Positions 11,401-56,692 of a stretch of 64,000 nt of DNA are shown here, in pieces. The stretch is from Roseburia sp. (lineage in GTDB: Bacteria; Bacillota; Clostridia; Lachnospirales; Lachnospiraceae). The stretch covers positions 1-64,000 of the forward strand of contig JAPFDX010000023.1 in the NCBI GenBank assembly GCA_026168605.1, given 5' to 3'. The first letter of the stretch is position 1; every line of letters begins with the position of its first letter. The notes below the pieces were generated by a model. It ran no database searches, was not told the origin of the DNA, and worked only from the letters and a program-made list of their open reading frames with translations. The translations under genes and the position numbers were made by a program.

Positions 11401-12292
11401 CATCCTCCGCAAGAACATGTCCGTTGATACGGTTCTTAAGCGCCAGCTTTTTATTGAATTTATAGCGTCCGACCTTTGCCAGATCATATCTTCTCGGATC
11501 AAAAAACATCGCATTGATCAGGCTCTCCGCACTCTCAACAGTCAGCGGCTCGCCCGGTCTGATCTTCTTATATAATTCAAGAAGTCCCTCTTCGTAATTG
11601 GTCGCAACGTCCTTGCCAAAGCTTGCAAGGATCTTCGGCTCCTCGCCGAACATATCGACGATCTCCTGGTTGCTTCCGACGCCGAGCGCACGGATCAGCA
11701 CAGTGATCGGCACCTTTCTGGTTCTGTCTACACGAACATAAAACACGTCATTGGAGTCTGTCTCATACTCTAACCATGCGCCACGGTTAGGGATCACAGT
11801 ACAGGAATACAATGTCTTACCCACTTTATCATGGGCAATTCCGTAATAGATACCCGGAGAACGCACCAACTGGCTTACGATCACTCGCTCCGCACCGTTG
11901 ATCACGAACGTGCCCGTCTCTGTCATCAGAGGAAGGTCACCCATGAATATCTCATGCTCGTTAATCTCATCAGTCTCTTTGTTGTGAAGTCTGACCTTGA
12001 CCTTCAAAGGAGCTGCGTATGTGGCATCTCTCTCTTTGCACTCCGGAATCGTGTACTTCACATCGTCTTCACACAATGTAAAATCAACAAATTCCAGACT
12101 CAGATGACCGCTGTAATCCGCGATCGGAGAGATATCATCGAAAACTTCTTTTAAGCCCTCTTTCAGGAACCACTGATAGGAGTCTTTCTGGACCTCTATC
12201 AGATTCGGCATCTCTAATACCTCTTTCTGTCTTGAGTAACTCATACGCATGCCTTTTCCAGCTTTCACCGGACGTATTCTGTTTTTCTCCAT
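8438..12292 (-). CDS. rpoB: RNA polymerase subunit beta
   Basis: This is the second-largest RNA polymerase subunit, 1284 residues, forming one jaw of the active-site cleft. The rifampicin region reads [31 protein letters not shown]. The residues usually altered in resistance (Q, D, H, R, S/A) are in the sensitive configuration, with alanine rather than serine in RRLSALG, which is normal in these bacteria. The C-terminal [21 protein letters not shown] block and an acidic tail are present. ATG at 12292 follows GAGAGGTG. Unlike the usual order, rplJ-rplL do not precede it; the upstream neighbour is a two-component system. Confidence 0.98.
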
Positions 12293-45013: not shown

Positions 45014-45244
45014 CTACCGCGCGATGTCTTCAAGCTCCCGCATCAGCTCAAGATCCGACTGCTGCACCCTCATATTTGTCGTGATCGGCTCCTCGCCCGG
45101 TCTGGTCACGGTGATCTCGATTATCGTCCCCTCCGTCATGCCCAGCGAAAAAACTCTTTCCAGAAAGGCGACAAATTTCGGGTGGTTCGCCGTAAATTTG
45201 TTTTTTGCATTCATAATTTTTATCATCGAAGCCGGATTTATCAT
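45014..45244 (-). CDS. Small conserved-looking hypothetical protein
   Basis: A 76-residue protein beginning MINPASMIKIMNAKNKFTAN, with a predicted amphipathic helix followed by beta strands (GTIIEITVTRPGEEPITTN) and a C-terminal helix (QSDLELMRELEDIAR). Start ATG 45244 has GGAGG 5 bases upstream; codons before that overlap the peroxiredoxin gene region and contain the ribosome site. It lies 38 bases after the peroxiredoxin gene in the same direction. No family recognised. The conserved-looking ribosome site and compact amphipathic composition support a real gene. Confidence 0.7.
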   Translation of the reverse strand: MINPASMIKIMNAKNKFTANHPKFVAFLERVFSLGMTEGTIIEITVTRPGEEPITTNMRVQQSDLELMRELEDIAR

Positions 45245-45281
45245 AATTTCCTCCATTCTTTCCCAAAAACATTCTCTGTAT

Positions 45282-45737
45282 TTACGAAAGTTCCGCAAGC
45301 ATCTGCGCAGGATTCTCCGCAGCCTTCACTTTCTCAAAGACTTTGGCGATCATTCCCTCTTCGTCGATCAGGTAGGTCGTGCGCACCACGCCCATCGAAA
45401 CCTTTCCGTAATTCTTTTTCTCCTGCCACACATCGTATGCCCGGATCGCCGCAAGCTCCGGATCTGACAGCAGCGTAAATCCGAGACCATATTTTTCCTC
45501 GAATCTTTTGTGTGACGCCACGGAGTCCTTGCTGACGCCGAGCACAACCGCACCCTTCTCCACAAACTGTGGGTACAGCTCGCTAAAACCGCACGCCTGC
45601 TTCGTGCAGCCCGGTGTGTTGTCCCTCGGATAAAAATAGAGGATCACTTTCTTCCCCGCATATTCGCTCAACGTGTGCATCGTTCCATTCGCATCCGGCA
45701 GTGAAAAATCCGGTGCCTTCATTCCTGCTTTTAACAT
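45282..45737 (-). CDS. bcp: Thiol peroxidase, BCP/PrxQ-type peroxiredoxin
   Basis: Reduces peroxides using thioredoxin. The 151-residue length is typical. The peroxidatic Cys is in YPRDNTPGCTKQACGF (near 44). The second Cys five residues later (CTKQAC) is the resolving Cys of the alpha-2 PrxQ class. The thioredoxin-fold core is seen in KVILYFYPRDNTPGC and VVRTTYLIDEEGMI. ATG at 45737 follows GGAGG. It stands at the left edge of the defence island and appears to be a housekeeping gene. Confidence 0.93.
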   Translation of the reverse strand: MLKAGMKAPDFSLPDANGTMHTLSEYAGKKVILYFYPRDNTPGCTKQACGFSELYPQFVEKGAVVLGVSKDSVASHKRFEEKYGLGFTLLSDPELAAIRAYDVWQEKKNYGKVSMGVVRTTYLIDEEGMIAKVFEKVKAAENPAQMLAELS

Positions 45738-45805
45738 TTGTCTGCCTCCTTTCTGTTGTTCACGATGTAATTATTTTTCTATTTTCTTTCTCAACGAACT
45801 TTCTA

Positions 45806-47587
45806 TCATTGCAAAAAACCATTTAATATATAAGGTATCTCTTCATACTCATCTATCCAGATAATATTCAGACCTAGGTTTTTGTAATATGCTGTCTGAA
45901 TGTTATCATCAATTCTCCGATACACATTCAGAATCTCTTTATTTACACTCTCCCCATTTTGTTTCCTCTCCAGTTTTCGCTTCTTCAAAAACGCATAGTG
46001 CCTTGGCTTTTCGTCTATTCTGGCGGCCACATCAAGCAGTCTTCTTAAATTAGGATCTGTCAGAGAACACCCGATAAAAAGACATGTATTTTCTCTCAGT
46101 GCACTTAGCTGCGCCAAATTCGACCATGAATAAGAGTCCTGATAAACCCGATGATAATCCTCTTCCGAGAAAATAAGATTTGGTTTATCTCCAGTTTGCG
46201 AAAAATCACTCGGCAAATACCCATGAACATGGTAAATATTTAATTTATCAACCATTTGTCTGTCCATTTCATCCGAGATAACATGATACTGAATATCTCT
46301 TTGCGCAAGCTTTCTTTCCAGTAAATCATCAAAATTATAAGTAATAATACTTTTAATACCGCAATATGCCCTTTGCGGTGTACTTATTTTGGCGATTGCA
46401 TTCAAAAGCTTCGTGTCAATATTGATCGCTTGTCCATATAATGCAGAATGTACTAATTTATAGTACTCATTGTTTGAAAATGCTGCTCTAATATACCTCA
46501 TTTGTATTAATGGAGATTCCATCCCATTGTATTCTGCAAGTTCTCTTATCATTTCCTGCTGCTTAAAACTCAGTTTGTCATCCTTTGTAAGCCCTGACAG
46601 CATAGAGATATGCAATGTCTTTATCAGTGACTCCCACAATGGTACGCCTCCATCAATCGAAACACCAGCCCCCAGAAACAATACCATGTCCTGTTTATGA
46701 AATGCATCCTTTATCTGTCTGATATACTGATTCCGTTTAATGTGCCTTTTCTCCTCCGACTCACCATTCACAACCACATCTTTAATCAGTGCCTGCTGTG
46801 GGTTAATCAGATACTGTGCATACGACGCTTCTGGTTCAATTCTGTCAAGCAAATCCTCTCTGTCCCAAATCAGAACCCTATCGCCAAAAATCCCTTTGTC
46901 TTCCTCTGGAATAAAAATATTTGTTATCACCAGGATCTTATCTTCCTCAAAAAAATTGGCAAGCCGCTCTTTCACTTTATCAAAAAACTCTTGTATCATT
47001 TGTTTTGACTCACCTATGTATTGAATCACACATTTCATCTCTTCTGCATTATTTTCTAATCCATTTGGCAGAAGCACATCATATGCAAAATTTCCCGCCG
47101 CCAACTCATCTTTCGGAACGCATCTTTCCTCTTTGCCCGCTGTTTCATGCAACAATCCCTTTACCATATTTTCAAACGCAAGAGCAGACTCAAACCCAGT
47201 AAGCCTTAGCTTTGCATCTCCATCACTTTCACTACCGCTTCTCACTTTCTGCACAATTTCATCAACGTCAATCTTCCCAATATCCCCATCAAACTTGTCT
47301 GTAAGTTCCCAAATACCTCTGGCTCTGTTCGTAATCAGACCGTATTTTTTTAGATATGTTCTTCCCCAAGCCATACGGTACTCAATTTCTTTCCGATTCC
47401 TTGAGCCTTTATGCATAATCTCAAGTACTTCCGGGGACAAATTCATGATTCTAATTACCACTTCATCCAGTTCAGAAACCGACGCCTTGCCTCCCAGTTC
47501 CTTCAATGCAAGCAATATTGGTTTTATTGTCTGCTCAAACCCCGGTACACCTATTTTGTTGTCATCATCATTAAAAAAGAAAAACAT
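45806..47587 (-). CDS. Mrr_N / degenerate REase / SIR2 fusion protein
   Basis: A 593-residue probable anti-phage effector. Residues 15-97 are the winged-helix Mrr_N domain (FEQTIKPILLALKELGGKA ... RTYLKKYGLI ... GIWELT). Residues 135-250 look like the Mrr-type PD-(D/E)xK nuclease fold (FENMVKGLLHE, Asp170, VIQY, ILVITNIFIPEEDKG, VLIWDREDLLDRI). The catalytic Lys expected two residues after Gln189 is Ile, so it is probably inactive. Residues 288-590 are a SIR2 domain with GAGVS (306-310), NFDD (418-421), the catalytic His455 in YHVHGYL and FIGCSLTDPNLRR near the end. SIR2 proteins in defence degrade NAD+ (family knowledge). It is the last gene of the LlaJI-like operon, but its DNA is visibly A+T-richer than the upstream genes. 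Confidence 0.82.
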   Translation of the reverse strand: MFFFFNDDDNKIGVPGFEQTIKPILLALKELGGKASVSELDEVVIRIMNLSPEVLEIMHKGSRNRKEIEYRMAWGRTYLKKYGLITNRARGIWELTDKFDGDIGKIDVDEIVQKVRSGSESDGDAKLRLTGFESALAFENMVKGLLHETAGKEERCVPKDELAAGNFAYDVLLPNGLENNAEEMKCVIQYIGESKQMIQEFFDKVKERLANFFEEDKILVITNIFIPEEDKGIFGDRVLIWDREDLLDRIEPEASYAQYLINPQQALIKDVVVNGESEEKRHIKRNQYIRQIKDAFHKQDMVLFLGAGVSIDGGVPLWESLIKTLHISMLSGLTKDDKLSFKQQEMIRELAEYNGMESPLIQMRYIRAAFSNNEYYKLVHSALYGQAINIDTKLLNAIAKISTPQRAYCGIKSIITYNFDDLLERKLAQRDIQYHVISDEMDRQMVDKLNIYHVHGYLPSDFSQTGDKPNLIFSEEDYHRVYQDSYSWSNLAQLSALRENTCLFIGCSLTDPNLRRLLDVAARIDEKPRHYAFLKKRKLERKQNGESVNKEILNVYRRIDDNIQTAYYKNLGLNIIWIDEYEEIPYILNGFLQ

Positions 47588-47602
47588 ATGCCCCTCCCTT
47601 TC

Positions 47603-48049
47603 TCACCAAAAGATATCATCCTGCTGTGTCATGATGTCAAAGACCGTCTCATCCACCACCCGCACGCACTCATCCAGATTTTTCCTGATCTCATCGCCCC
47701 AGAAACGGATCACCGTCCACCCCTCAAATAGCAGCCGCTTATTCACCTCGTCGTCCCGCTCGCGGTTTCTGGAAATCTTGTTGATCCAGAACTGGCTGTT
47801 GTTGCTTTTCTCAAGACGCGGCTTTAACACCTCCCAGTCCTTCCCGTGGAAAAATTCGCCGTCACAGAAAATGGCTATTTTGTATCTGGTCAAAACGATG
47901 TCCGGCTTTCCCGGCAGGGCATTGTAATTTTTCCGGTAACGGTAACCCCTCGCCCACAGCGCCTTCCGCAGCAGCACCTCAATTTTTGTGTCTTTGGAAT
48001 GAATATGCTGCATATTTTTCCGGCGCTGTTCCTTTGTCAGTACATCCAT
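47603..48049 (-). CDS. vsr: Very-short-patch repair (Vsr) endonuclease
   Basis: Vsr nicks next to T:G mismatches that arise from deamination of 5-methylcytosine. The 148-residue product has the family landmarks QRRKNMQHIHSKDTKIE, the metal-binding LPGKPDIVLTRYKIAIFCDG, an EFFHGKDW segment in place of the usual CFWHxCH, and a C-terminal WTVIRFWGDEI. The active-site Asp (PGKPD) is intact; the zinc-ligand pattern is less clear. It sits between the LlaJI-type nuclease and the SIR2 gene, beside two m5C methyltransferases and close to an EcoRII-type methyltransferase. Start ATG follows GACAGG. Confidence 0.9.
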   Translation of the reverse strand: MDVLTKEQRRKNMQHIHSKDTKIEVLLRKALWARGYRYRKNYNALPGKPDIVLTRYKIAIFCDGEFFHGKDWEVLKPRLEKSNNSQFWINKISRNRERDDEVNKRLLFEGWTVIRFWGDEIRKNLDECVRVVDETVFDIMTQQDDIFW

Positions 48050-48062
48050 AACCTGTCATCCC

Positions 48063-49271
48063 CTATACAAACCGCCCGATTTTATCTGCCAGTTCCAGAA
48101 TTTCCTCCCCGCCGCACCCCGCGTTCGCCTTCATAAGGTACTTCGTGTCGACGAGAATCCCCTGCACCCGCTCGTAGGGCTTTTTGTTTGACTTCCAGTC
48201 CCCGCAGGCTTCCCCGATCCTCACAATGTGTTCCAGCTCCGCGCAAAAAGGCATCAGAAACGCATTGTACACCTGAAAATCATCCCCGTACATCTGCCGG
48301 AATTTCTCCTGCTCTGCGATATATTCCGCGTAGGTGATCTGCTTGTTGACCGACGCGGAGCCGGGCAGATCGCTGTCTTTTCCAGTGACACCGTATTTAT
48401 AATATTTCGCATCGAGCACATACACGGTGCTGCCGCTCACCATGATGGTGTCGGGTTCCAGGGGCGCCTTCGCGCGCACCCCCTGCGCGGTATTCCAGTA
48501 TACCCGCGGAAAATAGTCCGCCTTGCCGCGGATCCCATAAACCCTATCGATCATTGCTTCCCAGACGTACTCAAACCGGTGTGTGCCGTATTCATAATTT
48601 TCCCCGGGGCTGTCGGCTTCCTGATTGTTTACAATGGCAAGCATGGCGAGCAGCAACCCTCTGTCCCTGTCCCGAAACGTATGTACAAGCCGGTCGCGCA
48701 GTACGCTTTGGAATAATTTTTCGTGATATTGCAGTGTGGGTCTTAGGGGAAGCGCCCCCGTAAACAGCCACCCGATCTTCGAAAAGCTCTCGTACACACA
48801 GTACTCGTGGATCCTTGTGATCAGCGCGTCGCTGCTCATGGTACTTTTCTTTGTTACAAAATCAAGATAATACGCATTTGCGCCCTGAATATAGGCTTTC
48901 TGGCTTCCGATCGTTTTATTCCAGTCGATCCTGCCACTTTTTGCCACGGAGTGGATCGTCTGGCGCTCTCTGTAATATCCGCGGGCGTAATAGTCATAGA
49001 TCACCGTCAGATATGCCTGCATGGGAAACGCACTCTCGCGATATGCCCTCCCACCATCCGGCAACACGGCATCCTTGCGCGCCGTCGTCGTTTTGATCGT
49101 CTGCAACAGCAGAAGAATGTCTTTCCGCAGTTCCCGCTCATTTTCTGAAATTTTGTATCCGAGCGGAAAATTGATGCGGATATCTCCGTCCTCACACTGG
49201 ACACCCACAAACACGTCGGCGTCACGGTTCGTATTCACCCTGCATTTTTCACGTATCGAAAACCGGCTCAT
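48063..49271 (-). CDS. LlaJI-family restriction endonuclease subunit
   Basis: A 402-residue protein resembling the R2 subunit of LlaJI-type systems (RE_LlaJI family). These need both this subunit and a McrB-like partner, together with two m5C methyltransferases. A PD-(D/E)xK core is visible as LEPDTIMVSG followed by VYVLDAKYYKYG, giving Pro-Asp and Asp-x-Lys. Upstream is a helical region (ALITRIHEYCVYESFSKIG; FEYVWEAMIDRVYG). It overlaps the AAA subunit gene by 23 bases, so the two are coupled. AGGAGG abuts the ATG at 49271, so the real start could be the GTG ten codons later. Confidence 0.82.
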   Translation of the reverse strand: MSRFSIREKCRVNTNRDADVFVGVQCEDGDIRINFPLGYKISENERELRKDILLLLQTIKTTTARKDAVLPDGGRAYRESAFPMQAYLTVIYDYYARGYYRERQTIHSVAKSGRIDWNKTIGSQKAYIQGANAYYLDFVTKKSTMSSDALITRIHEYCVYESFSKIGWLFTGALPLRPTLQYHEKLFQSVLRDRLVHTFRDRDRGLLLAMLAIVNNQEADSPGENYEYGTHRFEYVWEAMIDRVYGIRGKADYFPRVYWNTAQGVRAKAPLEPDTIMVSGSTVYVLDAKYYKYGVTGKDSDLPGSASVNKQITYAEYIAEQEKFRQMYGDDFQVYNAFLMPFCAELEHIVRIGEACGDWKSNKKPYERVQGILVDTKYLMKANAGCGGEEILELADKIGRFV

Positions 49272-50586
49272 CCTCCTGCCTTTCCTTCTCCTGCGTCACT
49301 CTCAGCATCCTCCGGTAAACCTCACGTTTTAACACCGCCGCAAGCTTGTCCTCTGTCGTCTTTTCATATCTTTCAAGCACACGCTCAAGCGACCGGAAGT
49401 CCTCCGCAAACATGGCGTCCCGCTCCATCTGGAACACGTCATCCCACAGATATTTCAGCACCTTTTCCGGGAAACGGTCTGCCGCAAGCTCCCCACGCTT
49501 TACAAAGTACGCGCCAAGCCGCTTGTCCTCTGTGATCATCATGTCCCGGTTCATTTCCACGATCACTTCATTGACAACCGATGCAAACGCTCCCCACGAA
49601 ACCTGCGAGCCTGCTATCTTCTGCCGTGCGTGCCCTGCCGCCCAAATGTCATTTTTCATACAGCGCATCTTCCATCTTCGCTGAAAAGCCGTGTCCATCG
49701 TAAAAACATTCTGATCCGCCGTGTTGATGGTTGCGATCAGCCACAGATTGGACGGTATCCGGACGCCATGCTCTCTGTCACTATAGACAATCTCCGCAAT
49801 CTCCTGATTGGAGATCGCATACTCGCTCTCGCCGTATTCCTCCGGCGCACAGCCCGGATCGTCCGCGCTTTTCCGGTCGAGAAGCTGAAAGATCTCCCCG
49901 AAGATCGCCGGGGCATTTCCCCGATTGAGCTCCTCGATCACAAGATAATATTGCTCTTTCGGATTCTCCCATGCCGTTTTCATCGCTCTCGTAAACGGCC
50001 CCGGCGTAAAACGATACTCCAGCTTGTCCTTTTTAACCACCGGAAGGATCTGCCCCACAAAATCGGAATAGGTGTAATCAGGATGAAATACCACCCGTTC
50101 CATGCGCCGCGCATCCCCGCAATAATTCCGGTTGATCTCGTGGCTCTTTCCAACCCCCGAAACTCCATACAGGAGCACGTTCTCCGCTCCCGTGATCCGC
50201 TCCGCACCCGCCTTGGGCATTTCTGACACTGTCTCAAAGTCTGCGATCATCTGCCTGCATATCGCCTGAAATCTGTCCGCATCAATCTCCGTGATGACCT
50301 GTAATTCCAGCTTCCCCTGCTCCGGCGTCACGGAAACGCCACCCGCGACCTCGAGCATTTTCTGAAGGCACAGACTGTCCCCATTCCGCCGGAGTACCTG
50401 AAAGTACATATTGATCTTCGCAACCGGACTCTTTCTGTAAACCAAAAGCCGGTCTCCCGTCTGCACATCGTCAAACACATTCTCATGGTTCTGGATCTGC
50501 AGTGAAAAGTTCATTGCCGTGGCGGAATCCATCGCAGAAAAGGCATCCATATAGGAATCGACGGATAAGATATAATAGTTTCCCAT
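49249..50586 (-). CDS. McrB-like AAA+ GTPase with EVE-like N-terminus
   Basis: A 445-residue NTPase subunit of the restriction complex. Residues 1-95 (YYILSVDSYMDAFSAMD; TGDRLLVYRKSPVAKINMY) resemble an EVE/PUA-like domain, a fold that often binds modified bases. The motor has Walker A GVSGVGKS (141-148), Walker B LVIEELNRGNAPAIFGE and the McrB-type NTAD motif in ATINTADQNVFTMD, followed by the arginine stretch FQRRWKM. McrB-like proteins use GTP to translocate and activate the nuclease partner. ATG follows GAGGAG. It lies 3 bases after the B3-like gene and overlaps the nuclease gene. Confidence 0.85.
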   Translation of the reverse strand: MGNYYILSVDSYMDAFSAMDSATAMNFSLQIQNHENVFDDVQTGDRLLVYRKSPVAKINMYFQVLRRNGDSLCLQKMLEVAGGVSVTPEQGKLELQVITEIDADRFQAICRQMIADFETVSEMPKAGAERITGAENVLLYGVSGVGKSHEINRNYCGDARRMERVVFHPDYTYSDFVGQILPVVKKDKLEYRFTPGPFTRAMKTAWENPKEQYYLVIEELNRGNAPAIFGEIFQLLDRKSADDPGCAPEEYGESEYAISNQEIAEIVYSDREHGVRIPSNLWLIATINTADQNVFTMDTAFQRRWKMRCMKNDIWAAGHARQKIAGSQVSWGAFASVVNEVIVEMNRDMMITEDKRLGAYFVKRGELAADRFPEKVLKYLWDDVFQMERDAMFAEDFRSLERVLERYEKTTEDKLAAVLKREVYRRMLRVTQEKERQEDEPVFDT

Positions 50587-50589
50587 CTC

Positions 50590-51213
50590 CTACTCCTCCA
50601 TTTCGTATTCACACTTTTTCCAGCCGTAAAAATATTGCCAGACAAGTTCTCCGCCTCTCACATCCAGCTCCATAAGCTCTTTCTTCCCCCTGGCGAAGTC
50701 CAGAATACTCTCGCCGTCTATGCACACATCATAAAAATCCGTCGTTTCCGGGGAATCATTCCTCTTTTTTTCTGATCCCAGATACCGGATTTCCACATCG
50801 CAGCCTGCGCGCAGTGCCTTTTCACGAAAAGTCTCCAGACGCTCCGGTGTAAGGATCTCAAACCCATGTCTTGATTTCTGAATGACCAGACCATCCCGCT
50901 TTTTACAGGTGGAGATATAGTACTCTGCGCTCTCTGCCCGGACTCTTTTCTCAAAAATAATCTCGTCCCCGGCACACAGCTCCTCTTTTCTGTAATACTG
51001 CCCCAGTCCAACGATCCGCGTTTCCCTGCCCACAGTCTTGCGCACCGTCACCTTTTGCCCGGAATACCTGTCCGTAAATTCCACCGGAACATCAGTTTTC
51101 TCAAAAATACCGGAAACATCCAGATCAGCCGGGACGAGCACATAGGTATCGTGTGTTCCGCTTTTTCCAAGTTCCGTGTTATTTAACTGCTTGACGATCT
51201 GCACTACCTTCAT
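50590..51213 (-). CDS. B3-like DNA-binding protein of the restriction locus
   Basis: A 207-residue protein not assigned to a named family. Residues 1-100 follow the B3/EcoRII-N pseudo-barrel pattern: LNNTELGKSGTHDTYVLVP (compare SANDTGATGGHQSGILI in the EcoRII-like protein of this window), then VPVEFTDRYSGQKVTV, GLGQYYRKEELCAGDEIIF and a strand ending YYIST. The C-terminal half is mixed alpha/beta. This suggests a separate sequence-recognition subunit for the LlaJI-like complex (inference). Start ATG 51213 has AAGGTG upstream; an ATG seven codons earlier is possible. It is packed between a methyltransferase and the McrB-like gene. Confidence 0.6.
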   Translation of the reverse strand: MKVVQIVKQLNNTELGKSGTHDTYVLVPADLDVSGIFEKTDVPVEFTDRYSGQKVTVRKTVGRETRIVGLGQYYRKEELCAGDEIIFEKRVRAESAEYYISTCKKRDGLVIQKSRHGFEILTPERLETFREKALRAGCDVEIRYLGSEKKRNDSPETTDFYDVCIDGESILDFARGKKELMELDVRGGELVWQYFYGWKKCEYEMEE

Positions 51214-51255
51214 GACTGCCACCTTCTCCCCCATATCGTGCCGCCATCCTATATC

Positions 51256-52764
51256 TTACAAGTATTTCTTAATCTCTTTTGCGATTCCCCGCGCCATCAT
51301 GACCGGAACGGCGTTCCCGATCTGCATATAGGTCTTGAGATAAGCCCCCCAGAACAGATAATCGTCCGGAAACGACTGGACTCTCGCTGCCTCTCTCGGC
51401 GTGATCGCGCGCACCTGAAACGGATGGATATGCGAATGGCAGTCCATCCGCAAATGTGCCGTGATCGTCCGGCACGGGCGGTCTGCGACCAGTTTATAAT
51501 ATTTGTCCTTAAAGCAGTGGTTGCGGTGCGCATACGGCATGATGTCCTTCACTTTCTCGTCCGTCGCGTCGTCCCCCTGCCCAAGTCTCCGGTAGATCTC
51601 ATAATTCACGTCACTGCAATATCTTGCCTTGTGGTTAAACACATACGGGATTTTTCTTCCCTGATTGATCAGCTTTAAGTATTCGTTGTCATTCTCTTCG
51701 TAGCGGTTGACGTCTATCTTCTTTCCGGTAATGTCGCTGTCAATCTCATTCGTATTTTTCACGCGCGGCGCCTCCAGCGGCTTGATATCCGCGAGCGCAT
51801 CTGCCAGAAGAAACTTCTTGTTGCCCGCACAGTTTTCTCCGATCCGCTCAAAAATATCCTCCGGGGTGATCCGGTGTTCTTCCATCACATCATTTCTGAC
51901 GGCGATGTAGATCAGCCGCTCCCGGCTCTGCGCCACAGAAAAATCCTGCGCGTTCAGTATGCGGTATGCCACCTTGTAAAAGTATGTTCTGCCATCCTTC
52001 CTGATCCTGAGGTTCCCATAGTCCTCCACCACCTGATCGGCAACCTTTAACATCCCTTTTACATTTTCCATGACCACGATTTTGGGCGCGATCTTTTCCA
52101 CTGCCCGCACAAAATATTTGTACAGCTTATTTCTCGGATCGTCGATCACCCGCTGCCGGTTCGCCTCGCTGAATCCCTGACAGGGCGGTCCGCCCACCAC
52201 GAGATCGATCGCACCGGAAACATAGTCGCCGATATTGTCTACAATCTCCTTGATGTCCCCCTGCACCAGTTTTTCCGACGGAAGCTCGGGATGGTTGTAT
52301 TTGTACGTCTGGATGCAGACGTCCTCAATGTCGTTGGCAAGCTGCACACGAAATCCCTCCTGCAAAAATCCGAGGCTCAAGCCTCCCGCTCCACAAAAGA
52401 AATCAACCAGTGTGTAACCTTTCTTCTCCCGCGCCCGCTTCTGACACTCCCGTCTTTTGGAGTTGTACAGCCCGTCCACCAGACTGCCCACCTTTTCCCT
52501 GTTGGAGATCACAAAATTGACAGCAAGCGCAAAGCGCGGATAGCGTTTCCCCAGAAATCCTTTCAGCTTTTCCACTTCGTCCACATGGTCAATGACCCCC
52601 ATCGCCTGCAGCTCCTCTGTGTAACTGCCGCTCTCTTCCGCCTGCAACTCGCATCCGTTTTTTTCACAAAAGACCTCGACGAGTCTGATATATACCTGGA
52701 TCTGCTCCTGAAAAAACGCTCTCTCGGTCTTATTTTCCAGTCTCCCTATGGATTTAAATATCAT
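51256..52764 (-). CDS. DNA (cytosine-5) methyltransferase, second of the LlaJI-like pair
   Basis: A 502-residue m5C methyltransferase. An N-terminal helical region of ~115 residues (ENKTERAFFQEQIQVYIRL) precedes the catalytic domain. Motif I is DFFCGAGGLSLGF, motif IV GGPPCQGFSEANR with the catalytic Cys, motif VI MENVKGM, motif VIII QSRERLIYIAVR and motif X QIGNAVPVMMARGI. The target-recognition region lies between VIII and IX. In LlaJI two such enzymes protect the two strands of an asymmetric site. The start ATG 52764 follows GGAGG and overlaps the first methyltransferase gene by 11 bases. Confidence 0.93.
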   Translation of the reverse strand: MIFKSIGRLENKTERAFFQEQIQVYIRLVEVFCEKNGCELQAEESGSYTEELQAMGVIDHVDEVEKLKGFLGKRYPRFALAVNFVISNREKVGSLVDGLYNSKRRECQKRAREKKGYTLVDFFCGAGGLSLGFLQEGFRVQLANDIEDVCIQTYKYNHPELPSEKLVQGDIKEIVDNIGDYVSGAIDLVVGGPPCQGFSEANRQRVIDDPRNKLYKYFVRAVEKIAPKIVVMENVKGMLKVADQVVEDYGNLRIRKDGRTYFYKVAYRILNAQDFSVAQSRERLIYIAVRNDVMEEHRITPEDIFERIGENCAGNKKFLLADALADIKPLEAPRVKNTNEIDSDITGKKIDVNRYEENDNEYLKLINQGRKIPYVFNHKARYCSDVNYEIYRRLGQGDDATDEKVKDIMPYAHRNHCFKDKYYKLVADRPCRTITAHLRMDCHSHIHPFQVRAITPREAARVQSFPDDYLFWGAYLKTYMQIGNAVPVMMARGIAKEIKKYL

Positions 52765-54013
52765 TGCAAGCCTCCAGCCCATCCAGTTTCTCTTTCATGC
52801 ACTTCGCGAGCGCCTCCGCGAGCAGCGGCGGAACCGCATTTCCGATCTGCTTGTACTGCTCTGTCCTCGGTCCTTCAAACACAAAGTCATCGGGAAACGA
52901 CTGTAACCTTGCGGCTTCCCTCACGGTGAAAGTGCGCGCCTGCGCGCTGTCCGGATGGATAAACTGATTGCCGTCCTTGTACAGATGCGCAATGATCGTC
53001 TTGGACGGCAGATCCCACCACTGTACCGCATAGCTGTTTCCAAAAACCCTTGGCTTCTCATGCCCCAGATCGGGACGGTTACAGAGCAGTTCCTGAAACG
53101 TCCAGTGGTTTGCGCTCATAGCGGCATACCGCTCCATGTCGCGCGCATTGTGCCTGCGCGCCACATGATCCCTTAAAATCTGATTGTCCGGCGGGCTGAT
53201 CTTTTTTAAAAACGCATTGTCCCGTCTGAACGAAAAGGCAACTTCCGCCTCGCCCTCCCCCGGTCGCAAATGCGGCAGTTCTCCGATGGCATCCTTAACC
53301 GTCACATATTTGGCGAGCCCGTCCCGCTCCTCCTCCGGCATTTCGGGGTCATAGTGCGTTTTGATGATGCCCGCATACATCTCCTCAGGCTCTATATCAA
53401 TTCCCTTTTTCACACCGATGATGATGACGCGCTTTCTCACCTGCGGCACGCCGTAATGCGCCGAATTGAGCACGTTCATCCCGGCATCAAATTTCACCTT
53501 GTAATTTTCGCTGAGCGCCTCCACAATCTTATCGACAATGTGCGTGCCGTTGATCTTTGCCGTCAGCATCCCCGTCACGTTCTCAAAGACAAAAAACTTC
53601 GGCTGATAGTGATTTAAAACCTTCACATAACTCTCAAACAGATAGTTCCTCGGATCATCCTGCATGGCGTGGTCGTCCTTCGCCCGCCCGAGACTCGAAT
53701 ACGCCTGACACGGCGGACCTCCGATAATAATATCCACCGTTCTGCCGCAAACCGCCTCATCCAGCCGCCTGATCACATCATCTCCCGTGATATCCAGATT
53801 CAGCACCGCCTGTTCGGCGTCCTCATATCCGTAGTGCCGCATCCTTGTTCTCAGTGTGCGGCAGGCCGTCCCGTCGATCTCCACATGGGCAAGCGCCCGG
53901 AAGCCCTGCATATAAAAGCCCTCGCTAAGACCGCCGCAGCCCGCAAATAAATCAATAAAATTGTGCTGCGCGGCGCGAACGGTCACTCCTGCACAGGCAG
54001 CTTCTCTGCCCAC
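52754..54013 (-). CDS. DNA (cytosine-5) methyltransferase, first of the LlaJI-like pair
   Basis: A 419-residue m5C methyltransferase with motif I DLFAGCGGLSEGF (near 20), motif IV GGPPCQAYSSLGR, motif VI FENVTGML, motif VIII VPQVRKRVIIIG, motif IX VREAARLQSFPDDF and motif X QIGNAVPPLLAEAL. The start is a GTG at 54013, 4 bases after AAGGAGG. That site lies inside the 3' end of the arsC-like gene, which this gene overlaps by 31 bases. The two methyltransferases differ in sequence, as expected for enzymes modifying opposite strands of a non-palindromic site such as the LlaJI GACGC/GCGTC. The actual site here is not known. Confidence 0.93.
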   Translation of the reverse strand: MGREAACAGVTVRAAQHNFIDLFAGCGGLSEGFYMQGFRALAHVEIDGTACRTLRTRMRHYGYEDAEQAVLNLDITGDDVIRRLDEAVCGRTVDIIIGGPPCQAYSSLGRAKDDHAMQDDPRNYLFESYVKVLNHYQPKFFVFENVTGMLTAKINGTHIVDKIVEALSENYKVKFDAGMNVLNSAHYGVPQVRKRVIIIGVKKGIDIEPEEMYAGIIKTHYDPEMPEEERDGLAKYVTVKDAIGELPHLRPGEGEAEVAFSFRRDNAFLKKISPPDNQILRDHVARRHNARDMERYAAMSANHWTFQELLCNRPDLGHEKPRVFGNSYAVQWWDLPSKTIIAHLYKDGNQFIHPDSAQARTFTVREAARLQSFPDDFVFEGPRTEQYKQIGNAVPPLLAEALAKCMKEKLDGLEACNDI

Positions 54014-55516: not shown

Positions 55517-56692
55517 TTATTTGCCCTCGATCGTTTTTACATATTCCACAAACCGGGTCAATGTCCATATTCTATCTCTACGATCCCTTGGATATGTCAC
55601 TATATAAGGTTTCGGTACAACCAATATGACATTCTCCGCCTGCATTTCATCCATCTGGGTTCCCGATACTCCTTGTTGAAGTGTACAGAGATATTTAGGT
55701 TTATCCCGTAGACGATCCGCTTCATTCAACACCTGTCTCCATCTGTCTTTACAAGTTGTCTTTGCTGCGAGAGAAATAATATTATCTGTCGGAAAATCAT
55801 AATTATGATATGCCTCGTGCGAGGGAAACAGAAAATCCGGCTTCTTATTTCCCTCCGTAACTGCCTGTGACGAATATTCTAACCCATTTCCATCAAATAT
55901 TGCTGACAAATGATGTTCAAGACTCTTTCCAGCGCGACTCTTACGACGATTTAACACCACATTTGCAACTCTGACAAATTCATCCACTGACTGAAATCCT
56001 TTTGTAATCATATTGCCATATCTCGCATATTCCAATGCCCGGAAAAGCGTATACTCCATATTTGTCCAACTGATAAGCTTCTCATCAGGATTTGTAATGA
56101 TATATTCTGCATGGTCATAGACTTTTTCTTCAATTGCCCTGGCTGCCGCAGACATTAAAGCCGATGCCGGAAAATCCACATCGAGACCACTGATAAACTC
56201 TTGTATTGCCAGCTTTTCCTGCGCCTCTGGCAAAACTTTTTTTATATCAATAAGACTGTTCGTCTCTGTAGGACTGATACCGAATGCATCAAGAAATTCT
56301 TCTATTTCCTCATCCGTATCCAGAAAATATCCGCTGTAATCAACATCTGTCTGTTGTGTAAATACAAATAATGCCCCTGTCTGTTCTGGTTTCAGAAACG
56401 GAAAGCCTCTACCGAATCGCGTAATTCTCAACTCATTTTTACTTTCATAATATGTAAAGCAGCTTTCTGTTTCCAAATCGTCCTGCCATCTGATTTTCAC
56501 TGTCCTTTTCGGAATCCCGGTCCGTTCAAGCTCCTGTTTTCTGAACAACATCACCATTGCTGATTTTGAAATCAAAATACCCGACTGATGACCGCCCGTT
56601 GCTCCCGTATCATTTGCAGAAAGAAATTTGCAAAATCCTTTTTCACTGTTAAGAACAGATTTTATCGCTTGTCCTGCATATCCTGTAATCAC
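55517..56692 (-). CDS. EcoRII-like restriction endonuclease
   Basis: A 391-residue type IIE-like endonuclease. The N-terminal effector domain (B3-like, residues ~1-150) has the signature LSANDTGATGGHQSGILISK. The C-terminal domain holds the PD-(D/E)xK site, read as KKPDFLFPS followed by IISLAAKTTCKDRWRQVL, which also matches the EcoRII-C family (R/K residues in TTCKDRWRQ). EcoRII cuts at CCWGG and needs two sites; the same specificity is likely here given the adjacent Dcm-like methyltransferase, but is not proven. The start is a GTG at 56692, directly after the methyltransferase stop. The DNA is A+T-richer than the LlaJI-like genes. Confidence 0.92.
   Translation of the reverse strand: MITGYAGQAIKSVLNSEKGFCKFLSANDTGATGGHQSGILISKSAMVMLFRKQELERTGIPKRTVKIRWQDDLETESCFTYYESKNELRITRFGRGFPFLKPEQTGALFVFTQQTDVDYSGYFLDTDEEIEEFLDAFGISPTETNSLIDIKKVLPEAQEKLAIQEFISGLDVDFPASALMSAAARAIEEKVYDHAEYIITNPDEKLISWTNMEYTLFRALEYARYGNMITKGFQSVDEFVRVANVVLNRRKSRAGKSLEHHLSAIFDGNGLEYSSQAVTEGNKKPDFLFPSHEAYHNYDFPTDNIISLAAKTTCKDRWRQVLNEADRLRDKPKYLCTLQQGVSGTQMDEMQAENVILVVPKPYIVTYPRDRRDRIWTLTRFVEYVKTIEGK

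Follow-up and report, generated by a model that had tools for sequence, protein, structure and literature searches.

Can one polypeptide couple restriction-type DNA recognition to the loss of NAD+, and does it do so on behalf of the restriction operon behind which its gene lies? These questions are raised by P0001, a protein of 593 amino acids in which an Mrr_N domain, a nuclease fold of the restriction endonuclease (REase) type and a SIR2 domain follow one another. Its gene, an intact open reading frame with an ATG start, lies on the minus strand at 45806..47587 of a 64,000-nucleotide stretch of a Roseburia contig (the window), and the source of the gene is a gut bacterium. The explanation that we favour, with a confidence that stops just short of even, is a single-gene anti-phage effector, in which Mrr_N would sit on DNA, the dead-looking nuclease fold would sense and SIR2 would deplete NAD+. 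DNA binding, a lack of cleavage, NADase activity, the trigger and the role in defence are all features that we infer for P0001.

Domain architecture and the SIR2 family

The Mrr_N domain (residues 17-98; 47294..47539, minus strand) matches Pfam PF14338 at E 3.8e-18. The SIR2 NADase-type domain (residues about 283-593; 45806..46741, minus strand) is identified by the Pfam SIR2_2 family (PF13289; residues 413-543, E 1.9e-24) and by Foldseek, in which it resembles ThsA, KomC and DSR2. The REase-fold domain between them (residues about 131-250; 46838..47197, minus strand) is delimited by the AF2 model, VIA-align 2 and the alignment, and contains the alpha-beta core of the PD-(D/E)xK fold; the only Pfam match to this middle region is a sub-threshold one to R.HinP1I (E 0.029). 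Pfam, the AF2 model and fold comparison agree with the first-pass annotation, which had read Mrr_N, an REase fold and SIR2 in one chain and had left the N-terminal part to structure prediction, where the REase fold indeed appears. The model has a pTM of 0.60, and the arrangement of the domains in it is uncertain. In a scan of 49 nuclease-fold domains none fell into a Pfam family of its own; Mrr_cat (PF04471) is absent from P0001 and matches one of the 49 at E 0.0071. No PADLOC or NCBIfam model covers more than a single part of P0001, and across the nine proteins scanned PADLOC models matched only parts other than the nuclease-fold domain. Against PDB sequences Mrr_N alone had no significant match and no solved relative, and a profile of the REase domain returned only chance-looking matches (gp41, troponin C).

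The SIR2 domain had been called NADase-type on account of GAGVS, NFDD and His455, and these motifs are found at residues 306-310, 418-421 and 455, in keeping with PF13289 and the fold matches. Residues G306, G308, S310, N418, D420 and H455 are invariant in all 51 aligned proteins. The domain also matches ThsA (E 3.4e-08) and KomC (E 3.3e-05) in sequence, and H455 pairs, as counted by hand in the alignment, with KomC His146, which is changed in entry 9xvc and named in its title. NAD+ depletion by SIR2 domains of this type is described in passages of a published study (PMC10952713), and the domain of P0001 is predicted to be an NADase. A second, distant SIR2-type protein (L002, G000:C38:45859-46320; 542-aa open frame) is encoded elsewhere in the window's genome.

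A contig scan yielded 241 relatives. Among the best 80 of the 241, which were analysed, are ten intact Mrr_N-REase-SIR2 homologues (L025-L034), 40-67% identical to P0001, and a broken relative in two ORFs (L035); the homologue records are labelled Lachnospiraceae, Oscillospiraceae, Roseburia, an unplaced Clostridia bacterium and Enterococcus. Within the window's genus a full-length homologue occurs in two of the 59 other genomes searched (42-43% identity), in a genus sample of 60 genomes of which 30 are at least 90% complete and at most 5% contaminated and many are incomplete; there was no further full-length match in 299 genomes of the family. Eighty-five proteins fell into REase-SIR2 (42), Mrr_N-REase-SIR2 (12, including P0001 and the broken L035), TIR-SIR2 (11), Mrr_N-SIR2 (one, L076) and no class (19), with the unclassed including truncated ORFs and the class-assigning profiles matching, by construction, the sequences from which they were built. 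Going by record labels, the REase-SIR2 group (42 of 85) is spread over several phyla. Fifteen relatives lie on virus contigs, three being REase-SIR2, three TIR-SIR2 and nine unclassed. The unclassed L096 has a HARE-HTH match below the Pfam cut-off (E 0.00077). In L076 (335-1633; Longicatena caecimuris) Mrr_N is fused directly to SIR2 and the nuclease fold is absent, a hint that the middle domain was acquired or can drop out. Taken together, the front ends seen on SIR2 (REase alone, TIR, Mrr_N alone and a weak HARE-HTH) would, on the sequence evidence, suit an effector whose sensors can be exchanged.

The nuclease-fold domain: site, divergence and trigger

In the 38 aligned REase-SIR2 proteins without Mrr_N (40 less L076 and L096) the distance from the Asp to the next acidic residue of the site is always 17 residues, the same as from D170 to position 187 in P0001, so that the usual E-x-K corresponds to V187-I-Q189. 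The first-pass annotation had the catalytic Lys as lost; this is true of P0001 (Q189), and the Glu is gone as well (V187), its nuclease-site positions reading E139, D170, V187 and Q189. E139 and D170 are kept in 11 of 11 full-length Mrr_N-REase-SIR2 proteins. Position 187 is V, Y or I in eight of these and E in three (L032, L033 and L034), while at position 189 nine proteins have K, L034 has R and P0001 has Q, with K189 retained in seven of the eight proteins that have no Glu187. The full D-ExK is thus kept in two of the 11. Among the 38 relatives without Mrr_N, every one has E or D at position 187, 27 have K at 189, and the strict D...(E/D)xK site is present in 27. Since 27 of the 38 REase-SIR2 proteins and two of the 11 in the Mrr_N group keep D-ExK, a DNA-cutting fold may be present in most members of the family. 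That of P0001 itself is likely dead, judging from its residues; likely rather than proven, because six of the eight Glu-less proteins carry a shifted E183-x-K/R185. In a quick tree of 83 SIR2 domains, made without bootstraps and with SH-aLRT supports only (L035, also left out of the alignments, and L037 being excluded), the 11 intact Mrr_N-REase proteins group with L036, which is split over two ORFs (SH-aLRT 90), and the eight Glu187-less proteins form one branch inside that group (SH-aLRT 94, star level 95).

The mean pairwise identity of the 11 full-length proteins is 55.4% for Mrr_N, 31.7% for the REase domain and 56.4% for SIR2. The 38 REase-SIR2 proteins, 27 of them with the strict site, served as a control at matched SIR2 identity. 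At 45-55% SIR2 identity the mean REase identity of the Mrr_N group is 25.6% (37 pairs) and that of REase-SIR2 25.0% (142 pairs), against 42.3% (12 pairs) versus 36.1% (37 pairs) at 65-75% and 48.3% (two pairs) versus 51.7% (13 pairs) at 75-90%, while the eight Glu187-less proteins have 29.3% at 50.9% SIR2 identity (12 pairs), all these means being descriptive because the pairs share ancestry. Since relatives that keep the site diverge to a similar degree, the domain was not released from constraint when the usual site was lost, although the 75-90% bin, where the Mrr_N group has the lower identity, speaks against this. Neutral decay was considered as well and rejected on the same comparison, given that most of those relatives retain the site (27/38 strict). 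The fast-changing nuclease fold looks instead like a working sensing surface.

A phage-protein trigger is the main rival to our reading, with a moved nuclease site next. In the former P0001 would act in the manner of DSR2, which a published account describes as triggered by a phage tail tube protein (PMC11263360): the N-terminal domains would recognise a phage protein in place of DNA, the nuclease fold would be a protein-binding surface and SIR2 an NADase. Of the three domains the REase fold diverges fastest, at much the same pace in relatives of which most retain the site, and this is what one would expect of a part tracking invader proteins. However, Mrr_N is as conserved as SIR2 and is named for the DNA-cutting Mrr proteins, which a constant DNA ligand fits better, and we regard a phage-protein trigger as unlikely, albeit as an account to be taken seriously.

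The alternative in which the site has moved takes P0001 for a nuclease built on E183-x-K/R185, D170 and E139, and SIR2 for an additional toxin or a regulator dependent on NAD+. E183-M-K185 of P0001 (47033-47041, minus strand) lies just ahead of the usual site, four residues before its place and on the same strand of the fold, at and just before model strand 184-189, which carries K185. The pair of E183 and K/R185 is confined to P0001 and its five closest homologues (L025-L029), being absent from the 43 other aligned REase domains, and the invariance of E139 and D170 and the persistence of K189 speak for the same idea, so E183-x-K/R185 may be a moved active site. Yet L030 and L031 lost Glu187 without gaining E183-x-K/R185, and a site four residues nearer to the Asp would be unusual in view of the uniform spacing in the 38 relatives; as a whole this alternative appears improbable.

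The restriction operon and the probable independence of the SIR2 gene

Upstream of P0001, all on the minus strand, lie genes for two m5C DNA methyltransferases (the first at 52754..54013, PF00145 E 6e-64; the second at 51256..52782, PF00145 E 2.1e-66), a 214-aa protein of unknown type (50590..51234), the McrB-like AAA+ subunit of a LlaJI-type system (49249..50586; PADLOC REase_II E 2.7e-90, AAA_5, with the McrB model scoring below its cut-off), the LlaJI-type restriction endonuclease (48063..49271; PF09563 E 1.1e-34) and a Vsr endonuclease (47603..48049; PF03852 E 5.1e-33), the last of the restriction operon proper. The 214-aa protein has no Pfam, PADLOC or NCBIfam match, but three other LlaJI operons (L164, L166 and L167; 32-58% identity) encode it in the same place, flanked by methylase 2 and the McrB-like gene, and it is an undescribed part of some such operons. 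Further along, a gene for a 391-aa protein (55517-56692, minus strand) matches a PADLOC type II restriction enzyme model (E 2.7e-64) and has a GC3 of 0.35, unlike the left-hand RCC1-like and ArsC-like genes.

From the vsr stop to the SIR2 gene start there are 15 nucleotides (47588..47602, minus strand), with the Shine-Dalgarno-like sequence GGGAGGGG, which suggests read-through from vsr. A consensus scan of 45200-48200 gave seven promoter-like sites in total, 6.3 being expected by chance, with none on the minus strand ahead of the SIR2 gene, and the gene is probably read from the restriction operon transcript. Its composition differs sharply from that of the operon, with 38.4% GC and a GC3 of 0.37 against 49-55% and 0.57-0.68 for the operon genes.

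The first-pass annotation had proposed a suicide back-up for when restriction fails, that is, a protein dedicated to the LlaJI-type operon that would sense unrestricted or broken DNA and kill the cell. The shared strand, the short gap and the gene's own Shine-Dalgarno-like sequence agree with such a role, as does L038, a relative without Mrr_N that also ends a methylase-Vsr-helicase row. We compared eight window proteins, SIR2 included, with 98 loci (tblastn, E up to 1e-6). Matches to LlaJI, McrB-like, Vsr or m5C methylase were near none of the ten intact homologues in the flanks examined, those of L025, whose contig starts 113 bases before the gene, and of L027, with 1.4 kb downstream only, being short; restriction-gene matches were found only near L038 and L070, neither of which has Mrr_N. 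LlaJI occurs in 27 of 397 family genomes, the window's own included, and the SIR2 gene is in none of the 26 other LlaJI loci, at one stretch per genome, with several cut by contig ends, one of the two LlaJI places of G110 covered, and L157 and L175, which match no query, counted among the 26. In these loci and flanks the domain order does not co-occur with LlaJI-type genes. Genomes of the ten homologues have LlaJI in two cases, leaving eight with no match, Vsr in five and an m5C methylase in eight. Further, L167 is a related operon without SIR2 (first methylase 80%, second methylase 77%, 214-aa protein 58%, McrB-like 57%, LlaJI 62% and Vsr 88% identical); after its Vsr, where the window has SIR2, comes a gene that we take from its motif to be Nudix-like. 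The missing linkage, L167 and the contrast in GC make an operon back-up at most a local, recent use, and as a dedicated function we consider it very improbable.

Three loci met in this survey deserve mention on their own. On one strand of L038 (2879-11320) an m5C methylase, a 507-aa protein, Vsr, a 311-aa protein, a helicase and REase-SIR2 follow one another, so that another SIR2 gene closes a restriction-like row. Close behind the REase-SIR2 gene of L070, on the same strand, a 248-aa protein (11469-12212) has a winged-helix-like start by eye and no Pfam match; it may be the DNA-binding part encoded on its own. In L155 (15549-15779) a lone short Mrr_N-like stretch lies next to a LlaJI operon that includes two m5C methylases.

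As to other companions, a conserved partner gene was looked for and rejected, the neighbours of the ten homologues being different except that L027 and L028 share flanks and L032 and L033 share some. L028 lies two genes before a Wadjet jetA, L030 is flanked by integrase-like ORFs (read by eye), L032 overlaps a RecQ gene by 5 nucleotides (stop codon not counted) and L033 sits behind an SF1-type helicase with DUF2726. A search for the insertion site through the flanking AhpC and ArsC genes in 40 relatives gave no empty site: the two are on different contigs in the nine genus genomes with strong matches to both, and 27 kb apart in G426, of another family. The best reading is that the SIR2 gene is a mobile single-gene cassette which landed behind vsr, independent of the operon. 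A DNA-bound, sirtuin-like regulator of host genes, which would suit the several homologues standing alone among housekeeping-type genes, is hardly credible for an accessory gene so sparsely present in its genus (many of whose genomes are incomplete), with a SIR2_2-type domain closest to NAD+-hydrolysing defence proteins and with relatives of the REase-SIR2 and TIR-SIR2 types carried by virus contigs.

Proposed mechanism and relation to known systems

In the favoured reading of P0001 as a single-gene anti-phage effector, Mrr_N would dock the protein on DNA, and the middle fold, probably non-cutting, would be the fast-evolving, invader-facing part of the sensor; successful sensing would switch on the C-terminal SIR2, which would hydrolyse NAD+ so that the infected cell stops. 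Damaged or modified DNA, named as the trigger in the first-pass annotation, is a candidate for what is sensed. The putative role of Mrr_N in DNA binding rests on family knowledge. Winged helices fused to nucleases read N6-methyladenine in passages of PMC11037411, a lead for Mrr_N, which those passages leave out. The fuller version of this reading, which we hold to be plausible but somewhat doubtful, makes P0001 a type IV-like reader of DNA that would kill through NAD+ loss rather than through cleavage, its nuclease fold now a sensor after catalysis was lost or the site moved, and one branch of a single-gene SIR2 family with interchangeable REase, TIR, Mrr_N and HARE-HTH-like front ends. If true, a single polypeptide would link restriction-type DNA recognition to a metabolic suicide switch, and a nuclease would have turned sensor along a traceable branch, with the Glu kept in three proteins, lost in eight and a shifted E-x-K/R present in six of those; the role of a dead nuclease would become testable with natural pairs.

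Among known systems, Thoeris ThsA shares the SIR2 domain and comes closest in both structure and sequence. In ThsA SIR2 precedes SLOG, whereas P0001 has SIR2 last with Mrr_N and the REase fold in front; Pfam finds no SLOG in P0001, whose aligned SIR2 part reaches the C-terminus. In published descriptions, the SLOG domain of ThsA responds to a cyclic ADPR. Like P0001, DSR1 and DSR2 are single proteins with a sensor and a SIR2 effector, and there is a fold match, but the Dsr1 model (NF041818) spans 1263 positions with SIR2 near the start, against 593 residues with SIR2 at the C-terminus, and P0001 scores 25 bits on it against a cut-off of 1400. SPARSA, in which nucleic-acid sensing is coupled to SIR2, resembles what we propose for P0001. 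Partner proteins of Argonautes include both Sir2 and Mrr-family domains, which the passages of PMC2743648 that treat them describe as separate protein families, whereas P0001 has them in one chain; no Argonaute was found among the eight proteins scanned, the direct neighbours of the P0001 gene being Vsr and AhpC/TSA. Mrr type IV restriction enzymes have Mrr_N followed by a nuclease-fold domain, as does P0001, which in contrast has no Mrr_cat, lacks the usual E and K and continues into SIR2. The nuclease domains of Lamassu LmuA and Avs4 are found in multi-gene or STAND systems, which are not known to carry Mrr_N. The fusion had been thought undescribed, and we met no description of it in the full-text literature, a body with most subscription papers outside it and hence weak evidence of absence. 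SIR2 NADase effectors are already known; what is new here is the front end of Mrr_N and a nuclease fold placed on one.
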